Source: a virus
Length of the DNA: 23,496 bases
Reading direction: 5' to 3' (one strand)
Virus record (IMG/VR): IMGVR_UViG_3300033155_001149
Span: 1-23,496 of that record
Shown here: positions 955-22,589 of the stretch, piece after piece
Layout: each line of letters starts with the position of its first letter
How positions within the stretch are numbered: the first letter of the stretch is position 1
Made by a program: the position numbers and the translations under genes
Notes under the pieces: generated by a model
Told to the model about the DNA's origin: nothing
Database searches by the model: none
Seen by the model: the letters and a program-made list of their open reading frames with translations, nothing else

Positions 955-2036
955 GATTAAAAGACATCGTCAATCAACTGGGTCTGATCCTGCCGAAATA
1001 CACGGACAGGTTCAGCACGTTGATATCAATTACAAGTATCAATGCGTCTGGTGGTGTTGCAACCATCGTCACAGATGATGTGCACGGACTGGTGACAGGG
1101 AATGCAGTGACGTTGTCAAATGTCAACACCCGCACACCGATTGATGCCGTTTCACAGGATGGATTGATGTTCACGTTCGAAACGTCTTCTGATCATGATC
1201 TGACATTCGGATGGTTCGATCAGGTCACTGTCGCACTTGAAGGATTCACAGACGGCGACTGGAACGATTCGTTCACCCTTCTGGATGTCCAGAATCGTGA
1301 AACATTCAAGGTCAGGTCGACGAATTCACTTCCGTCACTGAACGGCAACGAAAAACTTCTGGAAAACAGGATCGACGGTGTGAACGGCAGATATTCCGTC
1401 ACTGTAATTGACACAACCACGTTCACGATCACGGGCACATTCAATGATGGTGTCTACACTGGCGGAACGGTCAGTGGAAACGTCAGGGTTGCGGGCACGG
1501 TTGACGTCGAACGTGCGATTCAGGAATATACAAAGCAGGAAACAAATGATCTGTGGATGTTTGTCGGGATGCACGATGTTGAAACATCAAAAAATCGGGA
1601 AGCATTGTCGGACGCAATTGCGACACCGACAACAGGCGAAGACATCAGGTTGCGCCTGATCGACGGGTTCACCCTGTTCATTTGTGTGAATGTATCAGAT
1701 GAAATTGCGGGTGCAGTAGCAGTCGACGTCGTGCGTGACGAATTGTTGTCCCCTATATTGAACAGCGTTTTCGGGGTTAAGTTCAACAACAATCTGTCGG
1801 CAAGTCCTGATTTCCGATCTGTCCCGAAGGGACACGGGTTGATTTCTTATGATCGGGCGGTTCTGGTTTATGCATATGAATTTGAAGTTTCAATGGACAT
1901 TGTCGAAGCGGATGCAGTTGCACCACTTGACACCCGTGCATTTCGTGATGTGGACTACACGCACGAACTGGGAACGGATGACACTGACGATGCAGAAGTC
2001 ACGATTCCACTTGATGATGAAATCATTGTGACGTGA
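951..2036 (+). CDS. Tail terminator-like protein with inserted FCCH-like beta repeats
   Basis: A 361-residue protein starting at GTG 951, overlapping the previous stop and preceded by GCGGGGAAAAG. The first about 23 residues and residues from about 184 onward look like a tail terminator/gp37-type protein (helix, then VDVERAIQEYTKQ, an alpha/beta body, and a strand-rich end with VLVYAYEFEVSMDI). Between them, residues about 24-182 are a beta-rich insert with repeated features: DVHGLVTGNAVTL, a second DHDLTFGW...GDWNDSF...ETFKV unit, and NGRYSVTVIDTTTFTITG. This pattern matches the FCCH-type beta domains seen in phage structural proteins, and a similar unit lies in the baseplate J protein of this window. 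A terminator caps the tail tube and joins it to the neck. The role is inferred from position between tail completion and sheath plus the C-terminal pattern; the insert is directly visible. Confidence 0.6.
   Translation: MRLKDIVNQLGLILPKYTDRFSTLISITSINASGGVATIVTDDVHGLVTGNAVTLSNVNTRTPIDAVSQDGLMFTFETSSDHDLTFGWFDQVTVALEGFTDGDWNDSFTLLDVQNRETFKVRSTNSLPSLNGNEKLLENRIDGVNGRYSVTVIDTTTFTITGTFNDGVYTGGTVSGNVRVAGTVDVERAIQEYTKQETNDLWMFVGMHDVETSKNREALSDAIATPTTGEDIRLRLIDGFTLFICVNVSDEIAGAVAVDVVRDELLSPILNSVFGVKFNNNLSASPDFRSVPKGHGLISYDRAVLVYAYEFEVSMDIVEADAVAPLDTRAFRDVDYTHELGTDDTDDAEVTIPLDDEIIVT
1020..1496 (+). other. FCCH-like beta-repeat insert (protein domain)
   Basis: Codons about 24-182 of the tail terminator-like gene encode two to three degenerate copies of a beta unit with the signature 'H-G-L...G..V.L' then 'N-G-x-Y/F...V...TTF'. 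It interrupts an otherwise ordinary neck protein and is related in pattern to the segment at 10721-10945. Confidence 0.5.
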
Positions 2037-2059
2037 ATTTATAAAAAAGGAAAAATAAA

Positions 2060-2275
2060 ATGATGAAAAATTACAAAAACAAACAGTTGCAAATTGATGT
2101 TGATGGTGTTCTGGGGCACAAAGCAGGAATAGTCATCAATATCAAAACAGACAAAAAAGGAATCCCATTGAACGCAGATGTGCGAAGACATTTGCGGGAT
2201 GCGAAGTTTGACAATGGTTGTCAAATCATGAAAGCAGGGAAGAAAAAAACCACAACGGACAAGGGGGAAAAATAA
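2060..2275 (+). CDS. Small protein upstream of sheath, DUF2635-like (Mu gp38-like position)
   Basis: A 71-residue basic protein lying directly before the sheath gene, the place held in Mu-like phages by the small gp38/DUF2635 protein. The centre GIPLNADVRRHLRDAKF (residues about 35-51) resembles the 'g.pLp....WrRrL.dG.v' core of that family, though the tryptophan is absent. The C-terminus is a lysine-rich tail (KAGKKKTTTDKGEK). The start ATG at 2060 follows AAGGAAAAATAAA; a second ATG at 2063 is in the same frame. The last codons carry the AAGGGGG ribosome site (2261-2267) for the sheath gene, which begins immediately after the stop. Function is unknown; the family link is tentative. Confidence 0.55.
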   Translation: MMKNYKNKQLQIDVDGVLGHKAGIVINIKTDKKGIPLNADVRRHLRDAKFDNGCQIMKAGKKKTTTDKGEK

Positions 2276-3817
2276 ATGACTGCTATTTTAAAACCGAAAC
2301 AGCAATGGTCAATCATCCCTGCTTCACTTCTTGCAGGGGTAGCAGGACAGAACGTGTTGATCGTGGGACAGATGTTGCCCGCAGGAACAGCAACCGCAGA
2401 TGCGCTGTTGACTGAATTGACAAACGACACATCAGTGAACAATGCGTTGTTCGGAAGAACATCACACATTGCGGGAATGGTCAGAAATTTCAAACGTGAA
2501 AACGGAATCAGTCGCCTTGATGCGATTCCGCTTGCCGATGATGGTGGTGCGACGCAGGGAACTGCGGTCATTGCTTTTGTCGGGGGCGGGGGTGCGGGTG
2601 AAGCAGGAACACTGACCGTTGCAATCGGGTCTGAAAATGATCATCAGTATGAAATCGATGTGGAAGACGCCGACACCATCACGGAAATCGGTGACAAACT
2701 GGTTGCCTTGACTGATGCAGACCTTGACGCACCGTTCACGGGTGTCAATGCGGCAGGGACGGTCACATATACGGCGGAAAACGGCGGGACACTGTGCAAC
2801 GACTGGGACATTCGTGTGTCAGGAAGCGTTTCAGGGATCACGATCACACTGACAGGATGGACAGGTGGTGCAACCGATCCGTCACTGACCGGCATTCTGG
2901 ATGTGATTGGAAATATCAGATATCAAACAATCATATGGGCGTCTGCGTATTCACTTGCAACAGTTCAAACCCTGCTTGATGCACGCTTCAATGCAGACAA
3001 TCAGATTCTGGACGGCGTTGCAATCCAGTTGAAAAAAGGAACATCCACGGAAGTCAAAGCATATGCGGATCAGAACAGTCAGTCCGTTGTCGTGGTTGCG
3101 AACAAAACCATTTCTGAAACCGACCGCAAAGGAACTGCCGTTCCTGAAATGCCCGACACACTTGCATCACAGATCGGTGCAATCAGGGCACTGCGCAGGA
3201 CAGAAGGTGCAAGTTTGACGCAGTATCTGACGACCGTTGCACCGAAGGATCAGTTCGGCGGAATCGCACAGGCATCACTTCCTTATTTCAACACCGCACT
3301 TCCGAATTGTGCGCCCGCACTTGAACAGGACATGTTCACGGAAACGGAACAGAATTCAATGGAAGCAAGCGGGGTGTCAATGATCGGTTCAAACCGTGCG
3401 TTCAATGCCTGTATATTCGGCGCATTCGTGACAACTTATCTGACCGACACTGCGGGGAATCCTGATCTGTCATATAAGTATTTGAACACGGTTGACACAA
3501 TATCTGTGATCCGTGAATTCTTTTATGAAAATTTCCGTTCGAATTATGCGCAGACCAGATTGACCGACGGTGATCTGGTTCAGAGTTATGACATGGCGAA
3601 CGCAGGAAGCATTCGTGCGTTTTCGAATGAACTGTATGATGAACTTGCGGATGATGTTCTGGTTCAGAAGGGACGTGTTGCGAAACAGGATTTCAATGAC
3701 AACATGTCTGTGGAAACTGAAATCAGCACAGGGACGGCACTTGTCGACATCGCACCACTTCTGGTGACGCAGTTGCGTGTTGTACTGGGAACGATTCAGG
3801 TCAATTTCAGTTCATGA
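2276..3817 (+). CDS. Contractile tail sheath protein
   Basis: A 513-residue sheath protein of the Mu gpL type (gpL is about 495 residues). It polymerises around the tail tube and contracts to drive the tube through the cell envelope. The N-terminus (PASLLAGVAGQNVLIVGQ) is the usual start of this family, with strands that precede the first domain. Residues about 90-205 are a glycine/threonine-rich insertion domain, followed by the conserved alpha/beta core (DILGDV-like region from about 210, QSVVVVANKTISE at about 270) and a C-terminal domain with VLGTIQVNFSS at the end, where sheath subunits exchange strands. The start is set by AAGGGGG at 2261-2267 and directly follows the previous stop. The tube gene lies downstream, the standard sheath-tube order. 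Confidence 0.9.
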   Translation: MTAILKPKQQWSIIPASLLAGVAGQNVLIVGQMLPAGTATADALLTELTNDTSVNNALFGRTSHIAGMVRNFKRENGISRLDAIPLADDGGATQGTAVIAFVGGGGAGEAGTLTVAIGSENDHQYEIDVEDADTITEIGDKLVALTDADLDAPFTGVNAAGTVTYTAENGGTLCNDWDIRVSGSVSGITITLTGWTGGATDPSLTGILDVIGNIRYQTIIWASAYSLATVQTLLDARFNADNQILDGVAIQLKKGTSTEVKAYADQNSQSVVVVANKTISETDRKGTAVPEMPDTLASQIGAIRALRRTEGASLTQYLTTVAPKDQFGGIAQASLPYFNTALPNCAPALEQDMFTETEQNSMEASGVSMIGSNRAFNACIFGAFVTTYLTDTAGNPDLSYKYLNTVDTISVIREFFYENFRSNYAQTRLTDGDLVQSYDMANAGSIRAFSNELYDELADDVLVQKGRVAKQDFNDNMSVETEISTGTALVDIAPLLVTQLRVVLGTIQVNFSS

Positions 3818-3874
3818 TCTGACTTGATAAAAGAAACTATATTTTTTTAAAAATAAAAATGAAGGGGGAAGATC

Positions 3875-4330: not shown

Positions 4331-4339
4331 GGGCACGAA
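4331..4339 (+). promoter_or_regulatory. GGGCACGAA block upstream of the tail chaperone
   Basis: This plus-strand copy of the GGGCACGA block also occurs as part of four minus-strand ribosome sites. Here it lies about 18 bases before the start at 4358, with a second SD-like CGAAGGAAAA nearer the start. Confidence 0.35.
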
Positions 4340-4357
4340 CCCGAAGGAAAACACGTC

Positions 4358-4819
4358 ATGAAAGAACCGATGGTTTTTAAATTATCAAAGAACTTGTCAT
4401 ATGGAAAAGAAGGCGACTTCGAAGAAACAGGGGAAGTCACGATCGATGCGCCGTCAATGAAATGTTTCGCACAATTGAATCGACTGTCGCAACTGGCAAT
4501 GCACGCAATTTCAGACAACAATCATCGAAGTGCAAAAATGCGTGCAGAACTGGGACTCAAAGAACTTCCCGAAGTTGATGAATCTGATGACGCCGAAGAC
4601 GACATGAAACCGGATGTTGCGAAGATCATTTTGATGTCTTCCACAACAGTTGATTTCAATGACGTTGTTGCAGAGTTCAAAAACATTTTGAAGGTTTCTG
4701 GATGGGTCGGTGAAAAAACAAAATTCCCGATTGATCTTTTTAATCAGCTTGAAATTGAAGACATTCAGGACATGGTCAGTGGGTACATTTCAAATTTTAT
4801 TTATCCGTCAATCTTGTAG
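4358..4819 (+). CDS. Tail assembly chaperone, short (zero-frame) form
   Basis: A 153-residue acidic protein in the position of the tail assembly chaperone 'G' gene, between tube and tape measure. It begins with a beta-rich part (MVFKLSKNLSYGKEGDFEE, VTIDAPSMKC) and has helices and an acidic linker (about residues 70-88). It is not related by obvious motif to the lambda protein, but gene order and the overlapping -1 frame downstream make the assignment strong. Such proteins bind the tape measure protein and guide tube assembly without being in the virion. Start ATG 4358 follows GAAGGAAAACACGTC. The reading ends at TAG 4817-4819, 20 bases after a slippery heptamer that diverts some ribosomes into the -1 frame. 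Confidence 0.78.
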   Translation: MKEPMVFKLSKNLSYGKEGDFEETGEVTIDAPSMKCFAQLNRLSQLAMHAISDNNHRSAKMRAELGLKELPEVDESDDAEDDMKPDVAKIILMSSTTVDFNDVVAEFKNILKVSGWVGEKTKFPIDLFNQLEIEDIQDMVSGYISNFIYPSIL

Positions 4820-5007
4820 GTTCAGGAGATTTGACGGAAGAACAACTGTTCAAAAAAATCGTTCAGGTCTGTGCATGGATGAACGGTTCTGTGCAGTATG
4901 AACTTGCAAAGGAATATCCGATCGAAGAAATTTTCGATCTGTTGATTGAAGCAAACACGATCAACACGGAAATCAAAAACGCAACCGCAACAGGGGCGGA
5001 AAAATAA
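4358..5007 (+). CDS. Tail assembly chaperone, -1 frameshift fusion (G-GT type)
   Basis: Reading the zero frame to TTT 4796-4798 (147 residues) and then slipping back one base gives a continuous 216-residue product ending at TAA 5005-5007. The -1 frame is open from 4759. Its translated end (LTEEQLFKKIVQVCAWMNGS, then VQYELAKEYPIEEIFDLLIE) is a clearly protein-like helical domain with no good start of its own. The only SD-like AGGAG (4824-4828) sits 2 bases from a TTG, too close to be convincing, and the first in-frame ATG is far inside at 4879. This long form would correspond to GT in lambda, the chaperone part that recruits the tube protein. TAA overlaps the tape measure start (TAATG), so frameshifted ribosomes deliver directly to that gene. 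Confidence 0.75.
4792..4837 (+). promoter_or_regulatory. Programmed -1 frameshift signal (slippery site plus stem-loop)
   Basis: Slippery heptamer A AAT TTT (4792-4798) is in the correct zero-frame phase (X XXY YYZ). After a 6-base spacer, CCGTCAA (4805-4811) pairs exactly with TTGACGG (4831-4837). TCT (4812-4814) can also pair with AGA (4827-4829), leaving T4830 bulged and a 12-base loop. Phase, spacing and stem all match known -1 frameshift sites, and the signal lies inside the overlap between the two frames. Confidence 0.8.
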
Positions 5008-6800
5008 TGTCATATAAAATTTCATATGTTTATAGCATTATCGACAAATATTCCGTCCCGCTTGCACGCATAGCACGCAAGACAAAAGCGTTCGAACGGC
5101 AGATGCAAGTGACGAACGCATCACTGCGGATGTTCGCAACCACGACAAAAGTTTCAAAAAAATCCCTTGACAAATATTCAAAAGGACTGACGACTGCCGC
5201 CGCAAAAAAATTCACTTATGGTCAAGCAGTCGATGCGACGAATCGAAAAATCACAGAGTCCGCAAACAAATTCGGCAAACTGAAACGGAAGGTTGACAGC
5301 ACTTCCCGATCATACGAAAAGTTCAACAATAAAGTAAAAGCGGCGGCGGCATCCCTGACAAGACGACTTGCAATGTCCATGACTGCAATCGGCATCGCAT
5401 CCTTGAAAATGTCAATGGACATGAACAAAGGAATGGCAAATGTCGCAACCCTGATCCCGAAGGCAACTGAACGGATTGTCTCATTGAAAACCGAAGTTCA
5501 AAAAATGGCAATTGAAACAGGGACGTCAACAACTGTCATGTCTGGTGGATTGTATCAGGTCATTTCTGCATTCGGTGATACCGCAGATACAACAAAAATT
5601 CTGGAAATAAATGCAAAGGCGGCAAAGGCGGGTATCGCATCAGTTACAGATTCCGTGAATTTAACATCCGCCGTAATGAAGGGATACAACGTCGTTAATG
5701 CGGAAGGTGCGCAAAAAGCGTCTGACCTTGCATTTCAAACGGTCAAACTGGGACAGACGACATTCCCTGAACTTGCGTCATCAATGGGTCGTGTGATTCC
5801 ACTTGCAGGACAACTGGGAATGACACAGGAAGAACTATTCGCAAGTTTTGCAACCCTGACAGGTGTGACAGGTAATGCGGCGGAAGTCAGCACGCAAATG
5901 GCGGGTGCGTTGCGTGCGATGATGAAACCGACCGACAACATGAAAAAAGCAATCAAATATCTGGGATATGATTCTGCGAAGGCGTTAGTTTCTGAAAAAG
6001 GTCTGATCCCGACAATGCAAGCACTGGTCGACATCACGGGCGGAAGTGAAGAAAAACTGACATCAATGTTCGGACGCATGGAACCGTTGGTCGCATTGTT
6101 TTCCCTGACAGGATCACAGGCGGACACGTTCACGCAGAAAATGAAGAAGATGGGTGAAGCCGCAGGGGCGACAGATGAAGCATTCAAAGTCCAGACACAG
6201 GGAATCAACAGGGCGGGATTCAAATGGGATCAGTTCAAAATAAAACTGATGGTCGGTGCACAACAAATCGGTGACAGACTGATCCCGACATTTGAGCGAA
6301 TCCTGGGATCTGCGGAAGACACTGCACTTTCAATCGAAGGAATCGCAGATTCAATTGAAATAATGTTGAAACCGTTGGAAGGGATCATCTGGATTGCAAA
6401 AAAATCGCAGGACTTTGGGGAGAGTCAAGCGAAACTTCATGAAAAAAATATACAAAAATTTAGAATTGAATCATCACAATATTATAAAAGATATTCAGTT
6501 ATGAAAGACGTCGAAGGTGTTGCGGGTATGGGTGCAAAACCGTTGCCGGACTTCATGATGGGTCGGGGATTAAAAGAATTGCCCGATTTCTTGAAGGATC
6601 GGGGATCAAAACCGTTGCCCGATTCCATGATGGACAGGGGTGCAACTGAAAATCCGATGGTCGGTCGTCAACAAACACTTGCAGGAATTATCAGTGGAGA
6701 AATTAAAGTCGGTGCGGAATTTCCCGCAACCGTTGAAAGTGCAGAAATGGAAACAAGCGGGTTCGACGGGAATCTGGGTTTGAATATGGGGTCATTGTAA
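5007..6800 (+). CDS. Tail tape measure protein
   Basis: A 597-residue tape measure protein, which sets tail length and is held inside the tube before DNA ejection. Residues about 1-115 are basic and helical. They are followed by a hydrophobic region (RRLAMSMTAIGIASLKMSMDMN) and the PhageMin_Tail-type core (MANVATLIPK, ETGTSTTVMSGGLYQVISAFGD, PELASSMGRVIPLAGQLGMTQEELFASFATLTG, residues about 140-300), which is typical of this family. Near the C-terminus are three tandem 12-residue repeats (residues 510-545). The protein is short for a myovirus tape measure, implying a fairly short tail. The start overlaps the chaperone fusion stop (TAATG), and the end overlaps the next start in the same way. 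Confidence 0.88.
   Translation: MSYKISYVYSIIDKYSVPLARIARKTKAFERQMQVTNASLRMFATTTKVSKKSLDKYSKGLTTAAAKKFTYGQAVDATNRKITESANKFGKLKRKVDSTSRSYEKFNNKVKAAAASLTRRLAMSMTAIGIASLKMSMDMNKGMANVATLIPKATERIVSLKTEVQKMAIETGTSTTVMSGGLYQVISAFGDTADTTKILEINAKAAKAGIASVTDSVNLTSAVMKGYNVVNAEGAQKASDLAFQTVKLGQTTFPELASSMGRVIPLAGQLGMTQEELFASFATLTGVTGNAAEVSTQMAGALRAMMKPTDNMKKAIKYLGYDSAKALVSEKGLIPTMQALVDITGGSEEKLTSMFGRMEPLVALFSLTGSQADTFTQKMKKMGEAAGATDEAFKVQTQGINRAGFKWDQFKIKLMVGAQQIGDRLIPTFERILGSAEDTALSIEGIADSIEIMLKPLEGIIWIAKKSQDFGESQAKLHEKNIQKFRIESSQYYKRYSVMKDVEGVAGMGAKPLPDFMMGRGLKELPDFLKDRGSKPLPDSMMDRGATENPMVGRQQTLAGIISGEIKVGAEFPATVESAEMETSGFDGNLGLNMGSL
6534..6641 (+). repeat. Three 36-bp tandem coding repeats in the tape measure gene
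   Basis: Three consecutive 12-codon units at 6534-6569, 6570-6605 and 6606-6641 encode AKPLPDFMMGRG, LKELPDFLKDRG and SKPLPDSMMDRG. The consensus is K-x-LPD-F/S-M/L-M/K-x-RG. They form a distinct proline/glycine-containing linker near the C-terminus. Confidence 0.85.
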
Positions 6801-11671: not shown

Positions 11672-12285
11672 TGAATCGGTTTGACATATCAAAAGAAGAC
11701 AGTGCATTTTTGCTTGCGTCCCATCTTCCGAAGGGCAGAGTCTGGGAAGGCGGGTTTGATTCGTCAAAGAACTTCGGAATGTTGGTCGGCGCAATGGCTG
11801 TTGAATATTATCGGTTGACGGTTCTGTGCGAAACCCTGTCGAACGAACTGAACATTCGAAAAACAACCGATCTTCTTCCCGAATGGGAAAAGTCGGTCGC
11901 AATTCCGAACGACTACTTTTCAAACACAGAATCGATTGAACGACGCCGTGCACAGATTGAACAACTGTTTTCAAACTTCGGGGGCGTTCAAACGGCGGAT
12001 GATCTGGTTCGGGTTGCATTGTTCTTCGGTTTTGATATAACAGTGACTGCGGGAAGTGATTTTGATGAAACACCAGAAGTTTTCCCGCTGACGTTTCCAC
12101 TGCCTTTTTCAAAAAGCAGAAGGGAAACCGGACACACAATATATGTTCATATAATCGGTCAGGTTTTGGAAGGGACAGTCTTTCCACTTCCTTTTCCGAT
12201 TCCATTTGAAACACAGGCTGAACATTTTTTGCGGTTGATATTTGAAATTTTAATTCCCGCAAATGTTCAATTGATTTTTTATTAA
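11668..12285 (+). CDS. Baseplate protein, Mu gp48 / DUF2313-like
   Basis: A 205-residue protein of the DUF2313 family (Mu gp48, YmfQ), a tail-tube initiator/fibre-connection protein of the baseplate. The N-terminus has the expected ASHLPKGRVWEGGFDSSKNFGMLVGAMAVEY (residues about 17-47), followed by TTDLLPEWEKSVAIPNDYF and the RRRAQIEQLFSNFGG helix. The C-terminal part has two near-identical hydrophobic patches, FPLTFPLPF and FPLPFPIPF (residues about 139-180), a small internal duplication. It begins by ATGA overlap with baseplate J, and an AAGGGGG site for the fibre starts within its TAA. Confidence 0.85.
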   Translation: MMNRFDISKEDSAFLLASHLPKGRVWEGGFDSSKNFGMLVGAMAVEYYRLTVLCETLSNELNIRKTTDLLPEWEKSVAIPNDYFSNTESIERRRAQIEQLFSNFGGVQTADDLVRVALFFGFDITVTAGSDFDETPEVFPLTFPLPFSKSRRETGHTIYVHIIGQVLEGTVFPLPFPIPFETQAEHFLRLIFEILIPANVQLIFY

Positions 12286-12294
12286 GGGGGAAAT

Positions 12295-13530
12295 ATGCGA
12301 GATATACAAACAAAAACTGACGGCGTGTCAACGCTTCCTGCGAGTCAGTACAATGCAAACCTTTTGAACGAACTTCAAAACGCAGTTGAATCCGTGGGAA
12401 TCACACTTGATCCCGAAGGGGGCGCAGACACGAATCTGTTCATGTTAGCACAAACCCTTGCGACTTATGCGTTAGACGGTGGATTTTATCAGGATTCAGG
12501 GACTGCGAACACATACGTTCTGTCAAAAATCATTGCAACATTCAAATCACCAGAAGACTATTTCAACGGAATGTCTGTGTCGTTCGTTGTGGGAAACACA
12601 AACACAGGTGTGTCCACGATCAATGTCGCTGGACTGGGTGCTAAATCTTTAAAAAGTGCGGGCAGTCTTGCGCTGAAACTGGGTGATCTGCCGAAGGGCG
12701 CAGTCGTATCCGCAAGATACAATGGAACGGACTTCATCATTGAAAGCGTTGCAAGACCACAGACATCGGGTGACAATCTGTTGCTGAATTCAAAATTCAA
12801 TATCAATCAACGTGAAGTTTCGGGGGCGGTTGTTTTGGGTGCTGGCGTTTATGGTCACGATCGATGGAAGGGTGGTTCGGGTGGTTGTTCATATACGTTT
12901 GCGCAAGCACTGGGGGTCACTACTATCACAATATCGGCGGGAACACTTGTTCAAGAGGTTGACGGGGACAATGTTATTTCAGGTGATCACGTTTTGAGTT
13001 GGACAGGAACAGCACAGGCGCAAGTTGACGGGGGTGGTTATGGCGACACGGGCGAAGTCGTTGAAACGCTTGTCGGCGGAACAAACGCAGTCATTGAATT
13101 CGGGACTGGAACTGTTTTAAAAACACAGCTTGAATTCGGGACAATTCCATCATCATTTAAAAATTTATCGGGCGAAATCGATCTTGATAAATGTCAGGAT
13201 TATTTCGAAAGAATCAAGGCCGATGTTAATCAAATTTCATTTGGTGTGGGACAGACAAGAATTTCAACCATCGGTGACGTTAACATCAGTTATAGTGAAA
13301 AGCGAATCATACCATCTGTGTCATTGTCAAGCACTGCATCTGAATTTGCTATTTTTCACAGGCAGACACACACAGCATGCACGAATACAAGCGTCGTCGG
13401 AGGTTCAGTTGGGCGCAAGTCTTGTCGGGTTACTGGCACAACTGCGAGTGTATTGACTGCGGGTGAGGGTGTGCAACTTACTGCAAATACTACAACAAAT
13501 CCATATATCGACATTGATGCAGAAATTTAA
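12295..13530 (+). CDS. Tail fibre / receptor-binding protein
   Basis: A 411-residue fibre preceded by AAGGGGG (12284-12290). Residues about 1-60 form an attachment region (LPASQYNANLLNELQNAVES). Residues about 62-155 resemble collar domains found in many fibres (YVLSKI, YFNGMSVSFVVGNTNTGVSTINVAGLGAKSL, GAVVSARYNGTDFII). From about 161 a carbohydrate-binding-like domain begins with NLLLNSKFNINQREVS and AGVYGHDRWKGGSGGC, ending near CQDYFERI. A C-terminal head of unknown receptor follows. Base use differs from most of the window: six of the roughly 29 GAG triplets lie in this one gene, which fits more recent acquisition of host-range sequence. The exact receptor cannot be inferred. Confidence 0.8.
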   Translation: MRDIQTKTDGVSTLPASQYNANLLNELQNAVESVGITLDPEGGADTNLFMLAQTLATYALDGGFYQDSGTANTYVLSKIIATFKSPEDYFNGMSVSFVVGNTNTGVSTINVAGLGAKSLKSAGSLALKLGDLPKGAVVSARYNGTDFIIESVARPQTSGDNLLLNSKFNINQREVSGAVVLGAGVYGHDRWKGGSGGCSYTFAQALGVTTITISAGTLVQEVDGDNVISGDHVLSWTGTAQAQVDGGGYGDTGEVVETLVGGTNAVIEFGTGTVLKTQLEFGTIPSSFKNLSGEIDLDKCQDYFERIKADVNQISFGVGQTRISTIGDVNISYSEKRIIPSVSLSSTASEFAIFHRQTHTACTNTSVVGGSVGRKSCRVTGTTASVLTAGEGVQLTANTTTNPYIDIDAEI

Positions 13531-13539
13531 GGGGGGGGG
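13531..13539 (+). promoter_or_regulatory. Poly-G ribosome binding site
   Basis: Nine consecutive G residues directly after the fibre stop (TAA 13528-13530) and 8 bases before ATG 13548. It is an extreme form of the AGGGGG sites used elsewhere here; homopolymer slippage could change its length. Confidence 0.6.
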
Positions 13540-13865: not shown

Positions 13866-14461
13866 TAGCAGAATTCTTTCTTTGCGCATTTGTGTTCGCC
13901 CTGTTGAATCGTGTCAGGGGTTCGGAACTGAAAGTCTGGTTCATCAGACTTGATCCCGTTGCGACGTGGTTGATTGCGGGAATTATATCGTTGATGATTT
14001 ACATCCCGACACACAACAACTGGTACATCATCGGCGGTCTGCTTTATGTTGTCGGCGAACGTCCTGCATGGGGGAAGTGGATCGGGACATGCATTGACGG
14101 CGTCTGTCGGTTCAGTCAAAAAGGGGGAATCATCGGTGCGATTGCGAACATGATCGTTTCTGAAAAACAAAACTGTGTTTTGCACAGCAAAGTCGCACTG
14201 ACTATTCGGGGCGCATACTGGTTCGCACCGTGTCTTCTGTTCGCATATCACATCATGATTCTGGACATTCTGACTGTGTTGTCTGGGATCGCAGTGATTG
14301 CGATTTGTTTTCCGATCAGCGTTGCACTGGGGAAGGTTCTTCCCGTGCCCGCAATGTGGGTGACAAAGCCTGTGACATGGACAACAGTGGTCTGGTCGAA
14401 ATCTGAATTGATATATGGTTTTATACAGGGCGCAGTCCTGTGGACTTTACTTTTGAAATAA
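13862..14461 (+). CDS. Polytopic phage membrane protein of unknown function
   Basis: A 199-residue protein with several hydrophobic segments: residues about 2-16, 33-48 (ATWLIAGIISLMIYI), 53-65 (YIIGGLLYVVG), two between about 119 and 160, and 183-198. Between segments is a conserved-looking GERPAWGKWIG loop followed by a longer soluble stretch with SQKGGIIGAI. Similar 'R.aWGkW.G' membrane proteins occur in phage genomes near tail or lysis genes, but I do not know their role. It could act in lysis, superinfection exclusion or DNA entry. It begins by overlap with the preceding gene (ATGA) and its stop (14459-14461) runs into a short ATCTGA repeat. Confidence 0.65.
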   Translation: MIAEFFLCAFVFALLNRVRGSELKVWFIRLDPVATWLIAGIISLMIYIPTHNNWYIIGGLLYVVGERPAWGKWIGTCIDGVCRFSQKGGIIGAIANMIVSEKQNCVLHSKVALTIRGAYWFAPCLLFAYHIMILDILTVLSGIAVIAICFPISVALGKVLPVPAMWVTKPVTWTTVVWSKSELIYGFIQGAVLWTLLLK

Positions 14462-14483: not shown

Positions 14484-14496
14484 ACGGGGGTTGAAC

Positions 14497-17221: not shown

Positions 17222-17232
17222 TCGTGCCCCCT
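17222..17232 (-). promoter_or_regulatory. AGGGGGCACGA ribosome site for the clamp-like gene
   Basis: Extended Shine-Dalgarno shared with the genes at 22008 and, as GGGGGCACGAA, 20325 and 22215. It places the start of the clamp-like gene at 17220. Confidence 0.6.
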
Positions 17233-17256
17233 ATTTTTATTATTGATTATTTGTTT

Positions 17257-17604
17257 TCACGTCGACACCTTCTTCCACTTCGTGACGATCGCAGTGTGTG
17301 CAATGGGGTCTGTGCGTTTCGCATATCCCAGACGGACGATCATCCCGATCCTGCGTGCAGTGCAGATCACCGATCCCCATGCACGATTATCAGGTGGTGC
17401 GGGAAGACCCTGCGTTTCTTCCGACCACTTGCGCACATCTTCCGTCAGAAATTCATTGTGCGGATATGCTTGCACGCATTGAAGCGCCCGCCCCGACCAT
17501 TCCGTGTTTTTTTCATTTGCGTGTTTCCGTGCCCGTTGCATTCCTTCGTCCCGTTTCTGTCGTGCCTTGTCTATGTCACCGAATTCCATTTGTTCATGAC
17601 ACAT
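17257..17604 (-). CDS. Phage hypothetical protein (possible winged-helix-like)
   Basis: A 115-residue protein. The N-terminal third is basic and helical (IDKARQKRDEGMQRARKHA). Residues about 49-95 read HNEFLTEDVRKWSEE, GLPAPPDNRAWGSVICTARRIGMIVRLGY. The pattern 'F...DvR.......PpDnRAWG.v...A...G.I...GY' recurs in many phage and prophage hypothetical proteins and would fit a winged helix binding nucleic acid; no function is proven. A frame extending to 17628 is open, but ATG 17604 is chosen because AGGGGG (17616-17611) lies 6 bases upstream. The start is one base after the preceding stop (TGACATG), so the two genes are coupled. Confidence 0.72.
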   Translation of the reverse strand: MCHEQMEFGDIDKARQKRDEGMQRARKHANEKNTEWSGRALQCVQAYPHNEFLTEDVRKWSEETQGLPAPPDNRAWGSVICTARRIGMIVRLGYAKRTDPIAHTAIVTKWKKVST

Positions 17605-17605
17605 G

Positions 17606-17809
17606 TCAGTCCCCCTGTTTTTTTTCACATATGTGTTTTTTGAATTTTGGTTTCAAAAACTTGGTGTCTGCGCATCTGAATTCATAACCGCACAGACGAC
17701 AAAATGCATCTGAATATCCGTTGTGACGTGATCCGTCTGGAAGAAAATCACCATCACCGTGCGCAATTTGAAAATCCCTGATGACACCATCTTCACATTT
17801 TAATTTCAC
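17606..17809 (-). CDS. Small zinc-ribbon protein, GTG start
   Basis: A 67-residue protein with CRLCGYEFRC (residues about 37-46) and a later HIC near the end (about 58-60), which together could bind zinc. The rest (DFQIAHGDGDFLPDGSRHNGYSDAF) has no recognised motif. The start is taken as GTG 17809, which overlaps the TGA of the SbcC-like gene (GTGA); AAGGGGG lies 12 bases upstream, rather far, so the start is only fairly sure. The longer frame to 17866 would overlap SbcC coding and lacks a ribosome site. The stop overlaps the ribosome region of the next gene. It may be a regulatory or adapter protein; function is unknown. Confidence 0.6.
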   Translation of the reverse strand: MKLKCEDGVIRDFQIAHGDGDFLPDGSRHNGYSDAFCRLCGYEFRCADTKFLKPKFKKHICEKKQGD

Positions 17810-20325
17810 GATATGGTCACGCCCCCTTCGTTGAACTGAATGATGTGATCCGCCATTGCAACGCAATCAGGTTTGTGCGTGATATACAGACATGTTTCGA
17901 ACCCGCCTGACTTCATGAATTCACGATATAAGCGGATGAAGTGACGTGCGTTTTCTGGGTCAAGTGCTCCATCTTCTTCGTCGGACAGTGCCGTCATGAA
18001 ATTTTTGTCGTTCTTTTCCTTTGAAATCAGAGTCATCGCAAGTCGCAACGCCTTCAATGACCAGACCTTTTGTCCGCCTGACAGAACGTCCAGAAGTTTT
18101 TCGTTGCCTTCTTCATCGATGACAATGATGTCCAGAACTTCACGTCCAGATTCAGGATCAACCGTGCGCAGTTTTACTGAATAGTTTGTCCCGAACGTGC
18201 CGTGCAACAATTGGTTCGCATATCCGGTGATGACTGGTGCGACACTGTCGATTTCCAGTGCCCGCAGTCCGTCTTTTGAACAGGCGTTCCGCAAAAAATT
18301 CCAGTCAGACAGTTCATTCGCAATCATTTTCTGTTTGTCTTTCAACTTCTTCATGGATGCGTCCACGGATTCCAGTTCGGTCAGGGCTTTTTCACCGACG
18401 GTGATGTCGGCGTTCAGAAGTGAAATGGTGTTCATCAATTCTTTTTCTTTGTTCACTGTGGTTTCAATTGCGGTTTTCTTGACTTCGATGTTCCTGTCCA
18501 TGTTCCAGACGTCGCCCGCATCCTTTTTCAAGTCTTCCACTTCGTTGATTGTGCACCGAACCTGATGTTCTTTTTCGTCGATCCGTTCAGTCCAGACCCT
18601 TTTCACTTCCAGACCCCGATCAAAATTTTCCGTCTTCATTTTTTCAAGACCTTCCAGTTTTGAGTTTGCGACATCCACGGAAGAAGACTTCTTCGCAAGT
18701 TCTGCGAAACTCTTTTTTTCTTCCCTTGAAAATTCCAGTTCCTTTTTCAGTTTGTTCCGTGGCGAATCCCAGTCAGTCAGTTTTTCTTTTTCATCTTCAC
18801 GGGACTTCAATTCATCATGCAGGGGTTTCAATGTCTTCCCTGTTTCTGTTTCAATGTCAAGTGCGACCTGTTCCGCTTTTTTCAGTTCTTTTTCCAGATC
18901 GATTTTGTCTGCTTCCGCCTTCAATTTTTTTGCTTGAAGTTCATTTCTTTTGTCGTGCAGAAATTTTTCACGGGTGTGAACTTTTTCTTCCTGTTCTGGG
19001 ATCAACTTCTGTGCGGTTTCCGCCGAATCGAATGCGGGACAATCGGGAATGTCTTTGCACGCATCTGGTCGGGTTTCAAGCGCCTTCGCAGATTCACGAT
19101 AGTGGTTCAGATCGTTGATTGCGATTTGCAATTGTGAATCACTGGACAGTTTGTCTGCTTCCGCATTGACTTCGGTGATTTCGTCGTCACAGTCCGAAAT
19201 CGAAGACTTGACACGTTCGATGTTCAACTGCACGTCATTCAATGTCTTCGTGCAATCTTCGTCCATCTGGTCGATCACGGACTGTTGTTTTGCAACATCT
19301 GCGGTGACGGTTTCAATTTGCTTGTCTGCTTCGTCGATTTCGCCCGTGATCCGGTCAATGTCTTCATCACATTTTATGGTCATTGCAACGGCGTGTGTGA
19401 TCTTGTCTGCATCCGCAATTGTTTCGTTGACGGTTTTGATTTCATCGATAATGGTTTGCGCATCTTCCCGCAGACTGTGCAGTTCGTTGTCCCGTGCGAC
19501 CTTTTGATCCTGAATGTCTTTTTCGGTTCGGGATTTTCCCTGTTCAATATCCTTGATGCGTTGCAGAATGATTTCGATTTTGGTTTTGCGTGATTTCAGT
19601 TCTTCCAGTTCGACGTTGATCTGTTTCAGTTCTTTTTCGATTGCGGTCAGTTCGACTTCTTTTGATGCGACTGTGTTTTTCTGTTCTGAAATTTCCTTCC
19701 GCAGTGAATCTTTTTCCCGCACCTTTTCATTCAGGGCGTCCAGTTCCTTTTCGATCTTTTCAGCGCCTTCGATCAGGATTGCGACACACTTTTTTGCAGT
19801 GTCTTCATGCGCAATCAATTCATCCAGACGCAGAAATTCGGAAAACAACTTCTTCAATTCCGCAGTGCGCATGTCCGAAATCTTTTCACTGTTCTGTGCG
19901 CAGAAAATTGAATTGAAGAACAGTTCGGGCGTGCCGAACAACTTCGTGATGTATGCGTCATATTCCTTTTTTTTACCTGTGACGCCGTCTTCCGATGTTT
20001 CACATCCGTTCTTATAGATGAACCCTTCCTGCTTGTCAGAATTGCAATCAATCTTGATCAATGTGCGATACACGTCACCGTTCATTTCGAACGTCAGTTC
20101 CTTGACACTATCCCGAAAAAACACATGTGCGTTCAATGATTTTTTTCTTGATACCAGACGACGGAACGGTTGCAGGTTTTCCAGAACAGTTGTTTTTCCG
20201 TGTCCGTTGTTTCCAGACAGTGCAATCAGTCCAGACAGATCAGACAAGTCCAGTGTCAGTTCGTCGATCCCAATTCCTTTTTTGATCCCTGTGAATCCCT
20301 TCAAATATAATTTAATCAGTTTCAT
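17806..20325 (-). CDS. sbcC: SbcC/Rad50-like ATPase subunit of recombination nuclease
   Basis: An 839-residue SMC-type ATPase like E. coli SbcC (about 1050) and T4 gp46. With the SbcD-like nuclease it resects and trims DNA ends in recombination-dependent replication. Walker A is GNNGHGKTT (residues 38-46). Long heptad coiled coils occupy about 185-420 and 435-670. The ABC signature is LSGGQ (748-752), Walker B/D-loop region ALSDEEDGALDPEN (779-792) and the H-loop histidine 817 (ITHKPD). The zinc hook at the coil apex is CKDIPDC (423-429), CX5C instead of CXXC. Start ATG 20325 has GGGGGCACGAATAAC upstream. All about 98 glutamates are GAA. The stop overlaps the following GTG start. A Lar-like gene lies between it and sbcD. 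Confidence 0.92.
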   Translation of the reverse strand: MKLIKLYLKGFTGIKKGIGIDELTLDLSDLSGLIALSGNNGHGKTTVLENLQPFRRLVSRKKSLNAHVFFRDSVKELTFEMNGDVYRTLIKIDCNSDKQEGFIYKNGCETSEDGVTGKKKEYDAYITKLFGTPELFFNSIFCAQNSEKISDMRTAELKKLFSEFLRLDELIAHEDTAKKCVAILIEGAEKIEKELDALNEKVREKDSLRKEISEQKNTVASKEVELTAIEKELKQINVELEELKSRKTKIEIILQRIKDIEQGKSRTEKDIQDQKVARDNELHSLREDAQTIIDEIKTVNETIADADKITHAVAMTIKCDEDIDRITGEIDEADKQIETVTADVAKQQSVIDQMDEDCTKTLNDVQLNIERVKSSISDCDDEITEVNAEADKLSSDSQLQIAINDLNHYRESAKALETRPDACKDIPDCPAFDSAETAQKLIPEQEEKVHTREKFLHDKRNELQAKKLKAEADKIDLEKELKKAEQVALDIETETGKTLKPLHDELKSREDEKEKLTDWDSPRNKLKKELEFSREEKKSFAELAKKSSSVDVANSKLEGLEKMKTENFDRGLEVKRVWTERIDEKEHQVRCTINEVEDLKKDAGDVWNMDRNIEVKKTAIETTVNKEKELMNTISLLNADITVGEKALTELESVDASMKKLKDKQKMIANELSDWNFLRNACSKDGLRALEIDSVAPVITGYANQLLHGTFGTNYSVKLRTVDPESGREVLDIIVIDEEGNEKLLDVLSGGQKVWSLKALRLAMTLISKEKNDKNFMTALSDEEDGALDPENARHFIRLYREFMKSGGFETCLYITHKPDCVAMADHIIQFNEGGVTIS

Positions 20326-20326
20326 G

Positions 20327-20746
20327 TTATTCGTGCCCCCGTTTTATATTTTCCCAGTTTTTTCTGGCGTCTTCTTCTGATGCATACGCATGATATGCAC
20401 TTGCATTGTGAAAAGCACAGTCCGCACATTTGATGTAATACAGACCTAAAATTTTTATATGTTTTAATACAGTCTTTTTGCTTCCACATTTAGGACATCC
20501 CGACAATCCTATGGTATATTTGATTGTTACTTTTCGCCGTTCTTCTTTTGCCTTTTTCCACAAATTAATGACTGCGTCCTGTGGTGTTTTTCCTTCTGAC
20601 CAGTTCCCGCTATGTCCGAAATCAAATTCCATAGGCATATCACACGCCGACCACGTCCCGTCCCATTCTGCAAGGGTATTGGAAACAACACGCATCACTG
20701 AATATTTTTTGACAATAATTAAATATAACATCATTATTGTTTTCAT
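20327..20746 (-). CDS. Lar-like zinc-ribbon protein (restriction alleviation family)
   Basis: A 139-residue protein. The C-terminal half carries CPKCGSKKTVLKHI (residues 84-97) and IKCADCAFHNASAYHAYASEEDARKNWENI (106-135): two CXXC pairs (84/87, 107/110) followed by the 'eeA...WN' helix, the pattern of Lar restriction-alleviation proteins. Lar modulates host type I restriction by favouring modification. The N-terminal half (MEFDFGHSGNWSEGKTPQDAVINLWKKA) is an additional domain not seen in Lar itself. The start is set by AGGGGG (20760-20755), and ATG 20746 overlaps the SbcD stop (ATGA). It ends one base before the SbcC-like start codon region. Anti-restriction is plausible but unproven; a general zinc-ribbon role is possible. 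Confidence 0.65.
   Translation of the reverse strand: MKTIMMLYLIIVKKYSVMRVVSNTLAEWDGTWSACDMPMEFDFGHSGNWSEGKTPQDAVINLWKKAKEERRKVTIKYTIGLSGCPKCGSKKTVLKHIKILGLYYIKCADCAFHNASAYHAYASEEDARKNWENIKRGHE
20330..20340 (-). promoter_or_regulatory. GGGGGCACGAA ribosome site for sbcC-like gene
   Basis: Same extended block as at 17222-17232, 22009-22020 and 22220-22231; here separated from ATG 20325 by TAAC. Confidence 0.6.
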
Positions 20747-22008
20747 GATGCAATCCCCCTAACCTGTTTGACGATGTCTTCCTGTGTGTCTGCTTCCAGA
20801 ATTTTTGCTTTTTCAATGATTGATTCATCAAGCGTTTCACCCTTCAAGTTTTCCATTTCAATCAACTTGTCGGGCAGTGTTTCCAGTTTCAGAAGATTTT
20901 CACTTCTGACATTTTCACGGGGAATGATGCTTGTTCTGATGTCAACATTTTCAATCCCGTGCCCTGCAAACCATTCCATGATAGCACGCTTGTCAATTTT
21001 TTCAACATCATTCTGATAAACTGTGAAAATAATTCTGACGAAGGTCTTCTGTTCGCCCGTTTCAGGATCACGACAGTTCCGCAGGGAATCAACAAATATT
21101 TTGACCAGATCATCATCGATTTCGGTCAGATCGGTTTCGGTCATATCGACTTCGATCTTGACCAGTCTGCGGGTTGGCGTCTTGATGAATTCTGAATCGG
21201 CAGTTTTTAAAAGTTCAAAATCAACGAATTCATGAATATAAAACCCCTTGTCTTCCAGTTCCCCGAAGTCCTTGCGATATATTGACCCCGAATAGAAAAT
21301 GTTTTTCCCGATCTTTTGATTCATGTGAATGTGCCCCAGACACACGACGTCGGCGTTTGCAAGTTCAATCTGTGCCCGTGAAATTTCAATGTCCTTCCCG
21401 ATCAGTTGTTGCGTTTCAGAAATGAACGCCCCGCCGACCTGAAAGTGTCCGACCATGACGTGCGGAACATCTGGAAAACGGGATGCCATTTCACCGAACC
21501 CCGCAAAGATTCCGTTCATTTCCTTTGCGATTTCTTCATCGGTCTTCGCAATGCTTGAATCATCGTTCCTGAAAAACTGTTTCGTCGGCGTCGGGATCAT
21601 TGAAATCAGTGCGTCGGGTTTATATTCTGGCGTGAATGTGCGGGTGTTACAATCAAAAATTTTTCCCCGTTCCAGAAGAAGCATTTCAGGACGGGTTGAA
21701 AACCAGATTTGATGTTTTGCATTGATCCGATTCAGTATTTCAACCGCAGTTCCTTCGTGTGACGGCGTGCCCTTCACGATCACCACGGGCGCAAAGTCTG
21801 CAAGCTGATTGAACACCCTGAAAATCAATTTCGCACTGGGACTGTCCATCTTGATGTTCTGTGAATCTGGAACATCCCCTGCGCAGACAATCACGTCGGG
21901 TTGTTCGGTTTCGGCGGATTCAATAATGGTGTCAAAACATTTTTCGATTTCCTGCAAATCCTTGTCCCGCACATGCGGGTCGGCAAAGTGTAAAATTTTA
22001 AATGACAT
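20743..22008 (-). CDS. sbcD: SbcD/Mre11-like nuclease subunit
   Basis: A 421-residue metallophosphoesterase like SbcD and T4 gp47, the nuclease partner of the SbcC-like ATPase. Motif I is FADPHV (Asp10, His12), motif II VCAGDVPD (Asp45), and later motifs are GHFQVGG (His188) and LGHIHMN (His226, His228). Motif III, usually GNH[D/E], reads KGTPSHEG (80-86): the histidine (84) and acid remain but the asparagine is replaced by a TPS insertion. The C-terminal region is the partner-binding cap. The start ATG 22008 has AGGGGGCACGAA immediately upstream (22020-22009). The stop overlaps the Lar-like start. The two nuclease genes thus flank the Lar-like gene in one operon. Confidence 0.9.
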   Translation of the reverse strand: MSFKILHFADPHVRDKDLQEIEKCFDTIIESAETEQPDVIVCAGDVPDSQNIKMDSPSAKLIFRVFNQLADFAPVVIVKGTPSHEGTAVEILNRINAKHQIWFSTRPEMLLLERGKIFDCNTRTFTPEYKPDALISMIPTPTKQFFRNDDSSIAKTDEEIAKEMNGIFAGFGEMASRFPDVPHVMVGHFQVGGAFISETQQLIGKDIEISRAQIELANADVVCLGHIHMNQKIGKNIFYSGSIYRKDFGELEDKGFYIHEFVDFELLKTADSEFIKTPTRRLVKIEVDMTETDLTEIDDDLVKIFVDSLRNCRDPETGEQKTFVRIIFTVYQNDVEKIDKRAIMEWFAGHGIENVDIRTSIIPRENVRSENLLKLETLPDKLIEMENLKGETLDESIIEKAKILEADTQEDIVKQVRGIAS

Positions 22009-22020
22009 TTCGTGCCCCCT
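22009..22020 (-). promoter_or_regulatory. AGGGGGCACGAA ribosome site for sbcD-like gene
   Basis: The clearest copy of the extended ribosome-site block; it abuts ATG 22008. Confidence 0.65.
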
Positions 22021-22026
22021 GTTTGA

Positions 22027-22215
22027 TTAAAATGGAATGTGATGCGTTTCTATTGATTCCCCAGTGCAGGACAGTCGTTTGACGGGTCTGTCTTTGACCT
22101 TTGACAACCCCTTCGTCCCGTGATCGCATAGGGTTTCACCGACAACCCCGATGTCGTCCCTGTCCACGTCTTTGACTTCAATTTCAATTATATATTTGAC
22201 TGTGCATTTTCCCAT
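22027..22215 (-). CDS. Small hypothetical protein
   Basis: A 62-residue protein: TVKYIIEIEVKDVDRDDIG (residues 5-23) forms a strand-turn, followed by GETLCDHGTKGLSKVKDRPV and an end with THHIPF. No family recognised. A frame open to 22248 exists, but ATG 22215 is chosen because AAAGGGGGCACGAA (22233-22220) sits 4 bases before it, the same extended site as sbcD and sbcC. The block of the upstream gene's stop (22232-22234) lies within this site, so the two genes are adjacent but not overlapping. It precedes sbcD by 18 bases and belongs to the same operon. Confidence 0.65.
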   Translation of the reverse strand: MGKCTVKYIIEIEVKDVDRDDIGVVGETLCDHGTKGLSKVKDRPVKRLSCTGESIETHHIPF

Positions 22216-22219
22216 GTTC

Positions 22220-22231
22220 TTCGTGCCCCCT
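22220..22231 (-). promoter_or_regulatory. AGGGGGCACGAA-type ribosome site
   Basis: Extended GGGGGCACGAA site of the 62-residue protein; overlaps the stop codon of the upstream 55-residue protein at its far end. Confidence 0.6.
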
Positions 22232-22399
22232 TTATTCTGAAAGTTCATTCAGTGTTTTTTCATCAAGTTCAAATTCTGTGTCAAGAATTGTGAAGTCAAG
22301 TGTTTCATTCAGGTTGAACCAGTTCGGGTCTTGAAGACGATGCAGTGCAGTCCGAACCTGTTGAATCAGTTGTTGTCGCTTTGTCTGTCGATCACACAT
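22232..22399 (-). CDS. 55-residue helical protein
   Basis: A short frame not recovered by a 60-residue cut-off. ATG 22399 follows AAGGGGG (22410-22404) at 4-base spacing and reads MCDRQTKRQQLIQQVRTALHR to an acidic end (FELDEKTLNELSE) and TAA 22232-22234. A basic helical N-half and acidic C-half suggest a small regulator or an adapter, but no family is recognised. Support comes from the strong ribosome site, exact packing between neighbours (stop of the preceding gene within its ribosome site), and GAA-only glutamate use as in the rest of the operon. Confidence 0.68.
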   Translation of the reverse strand: MCDRQTKRQQLIQQVRTALHRLQDPNWFNLNETLDFTILDTEFELDEKTLNELSE

Positions 22400-22409
22400 G
22401 TGTCCCCCT

Positions 22410-22589
22410 TCAATATAGATCAGAAAAATCCATGTTGTGTGTTCTGCGATTCAGAAAGCAAAGTGCAAGACCAGAAACCGCAATGACAATTCCGATCACT
22501 GCGGTGATCCACAATTCACAGTCTGATCCCGCAAACATTATTCCCGTAAAAAAAACAACTACCAGAAAACCGTTGATAATTTTTTTCAT
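22410..22589 (-). CDS. 59-residue membrane protein
   Basis: A short frame of 59 residues with two hydrophobic helices: IINGFLVVVFFTGIMFAG (residues about 4-21) and LWITAVIGIVIAVSGLALCFL (about 26-46), separated by a short SDCE turn, and a polar end (NRRTHNMDFSDLY). ATG 22589 overlaps the stop of the preceding gene (ATGA) and is preceded by AAGGATGCAAA. The hairpin layout resembles small phage holin/antiholin or superinfection-exclusion proteins, but location in an early operon makes a lysis role less likely. Function unknown. Confidence 0.65.
   Translation of the reverse strand: MKKIINGFLVVVFFTGIMFAGSDCELWITAVIGIVIAVSGLALCFLNRRTHNMDFSDLY

Follow-up and report, generated by a model that had tools for sequence, protein, structure and literature searches.

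Avoidance of GAG and the form of Shine-Dalgarno sites in a myophage with a Mu/P2-like tail

Spanning 23,496 bases, the window is an entire IMG/VR virus record, and it raises the question of why its ribosome sites read AGGGGG in place of AGGAGG. A sequence-only reading of this DNA had proposed that avoidance of the word GAG reshaped these translation signals. Judging by the gene content of both strands, the window represents a myophage with a Mu/P2-like tail. It encodes a tail sheath (2276-3817, plus strand, matching phrog_165), a tape measure (5007-6800) and baseplate proteins, and SbcC-, SbcD-, Lar- and SSB-like genes are located on its minus strand. At 99.98% identity, the first 16,315 bases of the window overlap the terminal part of another contig from this myophage, which is 43,531 bases (43.5 kb) long. 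Both sequences together, with a joint length of about 50.7 kb, are referred to as phage A. Elsewhere, phage A encodes a BspA-type leucine-rich repeat protein (L012 17199-19379), a peptide deformylase (L012 13181-13681) and a Ros/MucR regulator (L012 2913-3449).

A relative of phage A, contig G002 (27.7 kb, referred to as phage B), served as a natural control. GAG is not depleted in phage B, and its aligned proteins are about 58 to 67% identical to those of phage A. It was the sole relative without GAG depletion that was recovered. Gene starts were called from codon scores alone, which kept Shine-Dalgarno (SD) motifs out of the choice of start. It should be noted that these calls placed the window starts 17604 and 22008 too far downstream, so that GGGGG sites are undercounted.

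Ribosome sites in the window

The following ribosome sites and related elements were located in the window.

2034-2059, plus strand: leader with a shortened, GAG-free AAGGAAAA, before ATG 2060; phage B ortholog AAAGGAGG
2261-2267, plus strand: AAGGGGG, 8 nt before ATG 2276 (tail sheath); phage B ortholog AGGAGG
3862-3868, plus strand: AAGGGGG, 6 nt before ATG 3875 (tail tube); phage B ortholog GAGGAGG
4332-4357, plus strand: leader with a shortened, GAG-free AAGGAAAA, before ATG 4358 (tail assembly chaperone); phage B ortholog AAGGAGG
4824-4828, plus strand: AGGAG, the only one in the window, just 3' of the stop of 4358-4819, in a place that is not ahead of an ATG start
12284-12290, plus strand: AAGGGGG, 4 nt before ATG 12295 (tail fibre); phage B ortholog TTAGGAGG
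13529-13539, plus strand: AAGGGGGGGGG, ahead of ATG 13548
14485-14490, plus strand: CGGGGG, 6 nt before ATG 14497
17227-17232, minus strand: AGGGGG, 6 nt before ATG 17220
17611-17616, minus strand: AGGGGG, 6 nt before ATG 17604
20336-20341, minus strand: CGGGGG, 10 nt before ATG 20325 (SbcC-like)
20755-20760, minus strand: AGGGGG, 8 nt before ATG 20746 (Lar-like)
22015-22020, minus strand: AGGGGG, 6 nt before ATG 22008 (SbcD-like)
22226-22233, minus strand: AAAGGGGG, 10 nt before ATG 22215
22404-22410, minus strand: AAGGGGG, 4 nt before ATG 22399

All ten G-run sites quoted by the sequence-only reading were found where it had placed them, each ahead of the ATG of a plausible gene, and their spacers of 4 to 10 nt fall within the range expected of SD sequences (about 4 to 12 nt upstream). 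Two further sites, at 13529 and 20336, had been overlooked. The assertion that most well-placed sites are of the A(A)GGGGG type was a little strong, as GGGGG precedes approximately 12 of the approximately 32 window starts; the remainder carry AAGGAAA-type, AGGG-type or weak sites. AGGAGG is absent from the window. The single AGGAG core, correctly picked out by the earlier reading, lies past the chaperone stop, and a candidate slip site, A AAT TTT, is located upstream of it. In this region (4793-4831), the -1 frame is open into 4831-5007, and the frameshift arrangement has an equivalent in phage B. Many of the G5 sites extend as GGGGGCAC(G) (window 17227-22410, minus strand, and L012), which is more than SD pairing explains.

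Depletion of GAG and CTC

GAG/CTC was observed 91 times in phage A against approximately 1,026 expected occurrences, representing an approximately 11-fold depletion. With both strands counted, the window contained 39 GAG compared with approximately 498 expected. All flanking contexts were affected, and the depletion was uniform along the genome: counts per 2 kb were mostly 1 to 7 (maximum, 10) in phage A versus 24 to 45 in phage B. On the coding strand, GAG and CTC reached 0.098 and 0.053 of their expected frequencies, respectively, each being depleted in all three codon phases, and glutamate was encoded by 1,006 GAA and 25 GAG codons. The loss thus extends to both DNA strands independently of reading frame, as expected of word avoidance. 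Because GAG and CTC are both depleted in all phases, the pressure appears to act on double-stranded DNA. A cause at the mRNA level or in codon usage alone was rejected, since the coding strand is just as poor in CTC and both words are scarce in every phase. Most likely, the pressure stems from host restriction or a related defence.

CGCG, GGCC, CCGG and CCAA were also strongly depleted. In phage A (the whole window and G001, L012-L014), two CGCG were counted versus 285 expected and two GGCC versus 170. Phage A is poor in CCGG, CCAA, AGC, CCAGG and GGACC as well, and phage B is not. Several depleted words would fit a phage that faces several restriction systems. Marked depletion of short words from both strands is known from restriction-site avoidance in phages (Rusinov et al. 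2018, PMC6286503), and the CGCG, GGCC and CCGG lost in phage A resemble Type II sites. The main word avoided by phage A differs in being a three-base non-palindrome. The gene products of phage A include a DNA adenine methylase of the MT-A70 type (L012 6639-7196). A Lar-like restriction alleviation protein (window 20327-20746, minus strand), whose weak profile match is just under the Pfam cut-off, is encoded between the SbcC- and SbcD-like genes.

Orthologous replacement and sequence context

Phage A has orthologs for five phage B starts whose core is GGAGG. These counterparts carry AAGGGGG at the sheath, tube and fibre genes and AAGGAAA at the chaperone gene and one small gene. A comparison with relatives that lack GAG depletion had been suggested by the sequence-only reading; phage B indeed uses AGGAGG where phage A has AAGGGGG or AAGGAAA. 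There are accordingly two exits from GAG, a central wobble or a shortened site, with those sites that did not take the G-U form being reduced to AAGGAAA. GAG-containing SDs were found at 3 of 69 phage A starts versus 13 of 32 phage B starts. The ratio of AGGGGG to AGGAGG before ATG was 17:1 in phage A and 0:9 in phage B. It was 48:114 in 80 other phage-like loci (30:23 with a non-start anchor), nearly all of which were found through terminase and which include phage B.

The earlier reading would have been contradicted by AGGAGG being common upstream of genes elsewhere in this genome. It occurs once in the approximately 50 kb of phage A (L012, near 13967), where AGGGAGGAGGAAAG (L012 13960-13980) precedes a small open reading frame at 13979. 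The 14- to 16-kb segment of L012 is the richest in residual GAGs and TTGG and was possibly acquired recently. GAG was about three times as frequent in the 24 bases before starts as in coding sequence (0.37 versus 0.125 per 100 nt). This excess, resting on approximately seven occurrences, hints at SD selection pulling against avoidance.

The best causal test is a contrast of contexts, in which the A-to-G flip is confined to positions where A would form GAG. For AGGN at starts with G as the next base, A:G was 1:15 in phage A versus 8:0 in phage B (P = 1.2e-5); with any other next base, it was 15:8 versus 8:3 (P = 1.0). The genome-wide ratios were 3:75 in phage A versus 58:9 in phage B before G and 271:161 versus 223:79 elsewhere. 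Since the pattern is the same genome-wide, the altered SDs form part of a general word avoidance, and conversion of AGGAG to AGGGG is not peculiar to translation signals. Starts are the places where GAG would otherwise be most needed.

The same contrast bears on the possibility that the phage follows a host lineage favouring G-run ribosome sites, GAG depletion being coincidental. A general preference for G-runs would alter both contexts, but only the GAG-forming one is altered; outside it, phage A favours A over G as phage B does. A host convention is not without precedent, as certain bacteria in which GAG is not depleted have more AAGGGGG than AAGGAGG sites (for instance, 56 versus 35 in G084, in which GAG is at 1.34 of expected). 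The motif alone is therefore not diagnostic. Among 87 cellular genomes of a single order, the one to which Novacetimonas belongs, the ratio of AAGGGGG to AAGGAGG showed no overall relation to GAG depletion (rho = -0.05; -0.20 with GC partialled out), with GAG frequency measured on one 9- to 20-kb stretch per genome. Only in the most GAG-depleted quartile was AAGGGGG ahead (439:363 net), compared with 378:647, 382:615 and 274:400 in the other quartiles. Novacetimonas stretches (L066, L067 and L107-L113) showed moderate GAG depletion beyond the prophage too (observed/expected of about 0.44 to 0.66), and AAGGGGG outnumbers AAGGAGG in them; this combination is suggestive only. Searches for the host yielded no match to the sheath profile among GTDB genomes, and the TerL profile gave only matches of up to 56%, scattered over diverse lineages. 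A sheath search in the sampled phyla of two TerL-bearing genomes, which had no positive control and is weak, found none. Among phage records, tblastn with the sheath returned no match, and portal and hub matches were remote only. In light of the contrast of contexts, we consider a host convention unlikely.

Enrichment at starts, predicted pairing and known systems

In phage A, GGGGG was present in the SD window of 20 of 69 ATG starts compared with 1.0% of 1,787 other ATGs, an approximately 29-fold enrichment at true starts such as SD sequences should display. It began at positions -17 to -9 relative to the start. AGGGGG preceded 14 of 79 starts versus 0.23% of non-starts (P = 6e-17). In phage B, GGGGG was found at none of 32 starts and at 0.2% of non-start ATGs. 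That G-runs are a by-product of base composition, phage A being richer in G (GC content of 45% versus 41%) and having more GGGGG at non-start ATGs, is contradicted by this non-start control and by the clustered positions within the same genome, and is highly improbable.

Pairing was computed with RNAduplex against the standard 16S tail ACCUCCUUU, on the assumption that the host tail is standard, from which it may differ. AAGGAGG gave -10.7 kcal/mol and AAGGGGG -9.8 kcal/mol, in agreement with the earlier statement that AGGGGG still pairs through one G-U, whereas other single variants destroying GAG gave -4.2 to -6.3 kcal/mol. Nine single substitutions of AGGAGG remove GAG, and A to G alone leaves the pairing uninterrupted. 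AGGGGG was also the most enriched GAG-free single variant at phage A starts, followed by AGGAAG (4 of 79). Mean predicted SD strength was -6.0 in phage A versus -6.3 in phage B. A changed host 16S tail pairing best with GGGGG is very doubtful, given that altered CCUCC cores are rare and that AAGGAAA and AAGGA sites, which pair with the standard tail, persist; the host anti-SD is probably standard.

We observed GAG depletion, SD-like site placement, replacement at orthologs, a flip limited to the GAG context and preserved predicted pairing. The last three support the proposal that GAG avoidance reshaped the SDs, with AAGGAAA as a second replacement. We favour the reading, at a probability of roughly 0.8, that A(A)GGGGG sites are ordinary SDs whose form was shifted by whole-genome avoidance of GAG/CTC. 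The avoided word falls inside the canonical AGGAGG; changing the central A to G would remove it and swap one A-U pair for a G-U wobble, so that pairing with the standard anti-SD (CCUCC) would be kept almost in full. The A(A)GGGGG sites presumably initiate translation. There is about an even chance that host defence against a three-base word made the phage rebuild its initiation signals around G-U wobble, a natural genome-wide SD mutagenesis in which almost every AGGAG core underwent conversion, solely where GAG was formed.

As in canonical SDs, the phage A sites are located 4 to 10 nt before ATG and have a purine-rich core with predicted pairing of approximately -10 kcal/mol to the standard tail; they differ in the central G and its G-U wobble, almost throughout one genome. 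In Staphylococcus aureus, GGGGG is counted among GGGGG/GGGG-type SD motifs, and it was shown experimentally that, within an extended SD, G:U can take the place of A:U (PMC13009471). Given this precedent, the mechanism requires nothing new. Both GGAGG and GGGGG were considered in S. aureus, whereas GGAGG is almost absent from phage A alongside the loss of GAG. A consequence for translation signals is undiscussed by Rusinov et al. (2018, PMC6286503), in whose text "Shine" and "ribosome" are absent, and no paper tying word avoidance to SD form was found in the open-access literature. What is new is the coupling of word avoidance to SD form; its component parts are known and no new translation mechanism is involved.

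These findings indicate that a constraint at the DNA level can propagate into signals at the RNA level, and phage A is an unusually clear case. It offers a natural experiment on SD sequence: an identical A-to-G substitution is carried by many sites of a single genome, and their predicted pairing strength is maintained. Stranger still is what underlies it, a three-base word reduced approximately 11-fold. Differences in SD motif among phages can reflect word avoidance and not a different ribosome, which is relevant to the prediction of gene starts.
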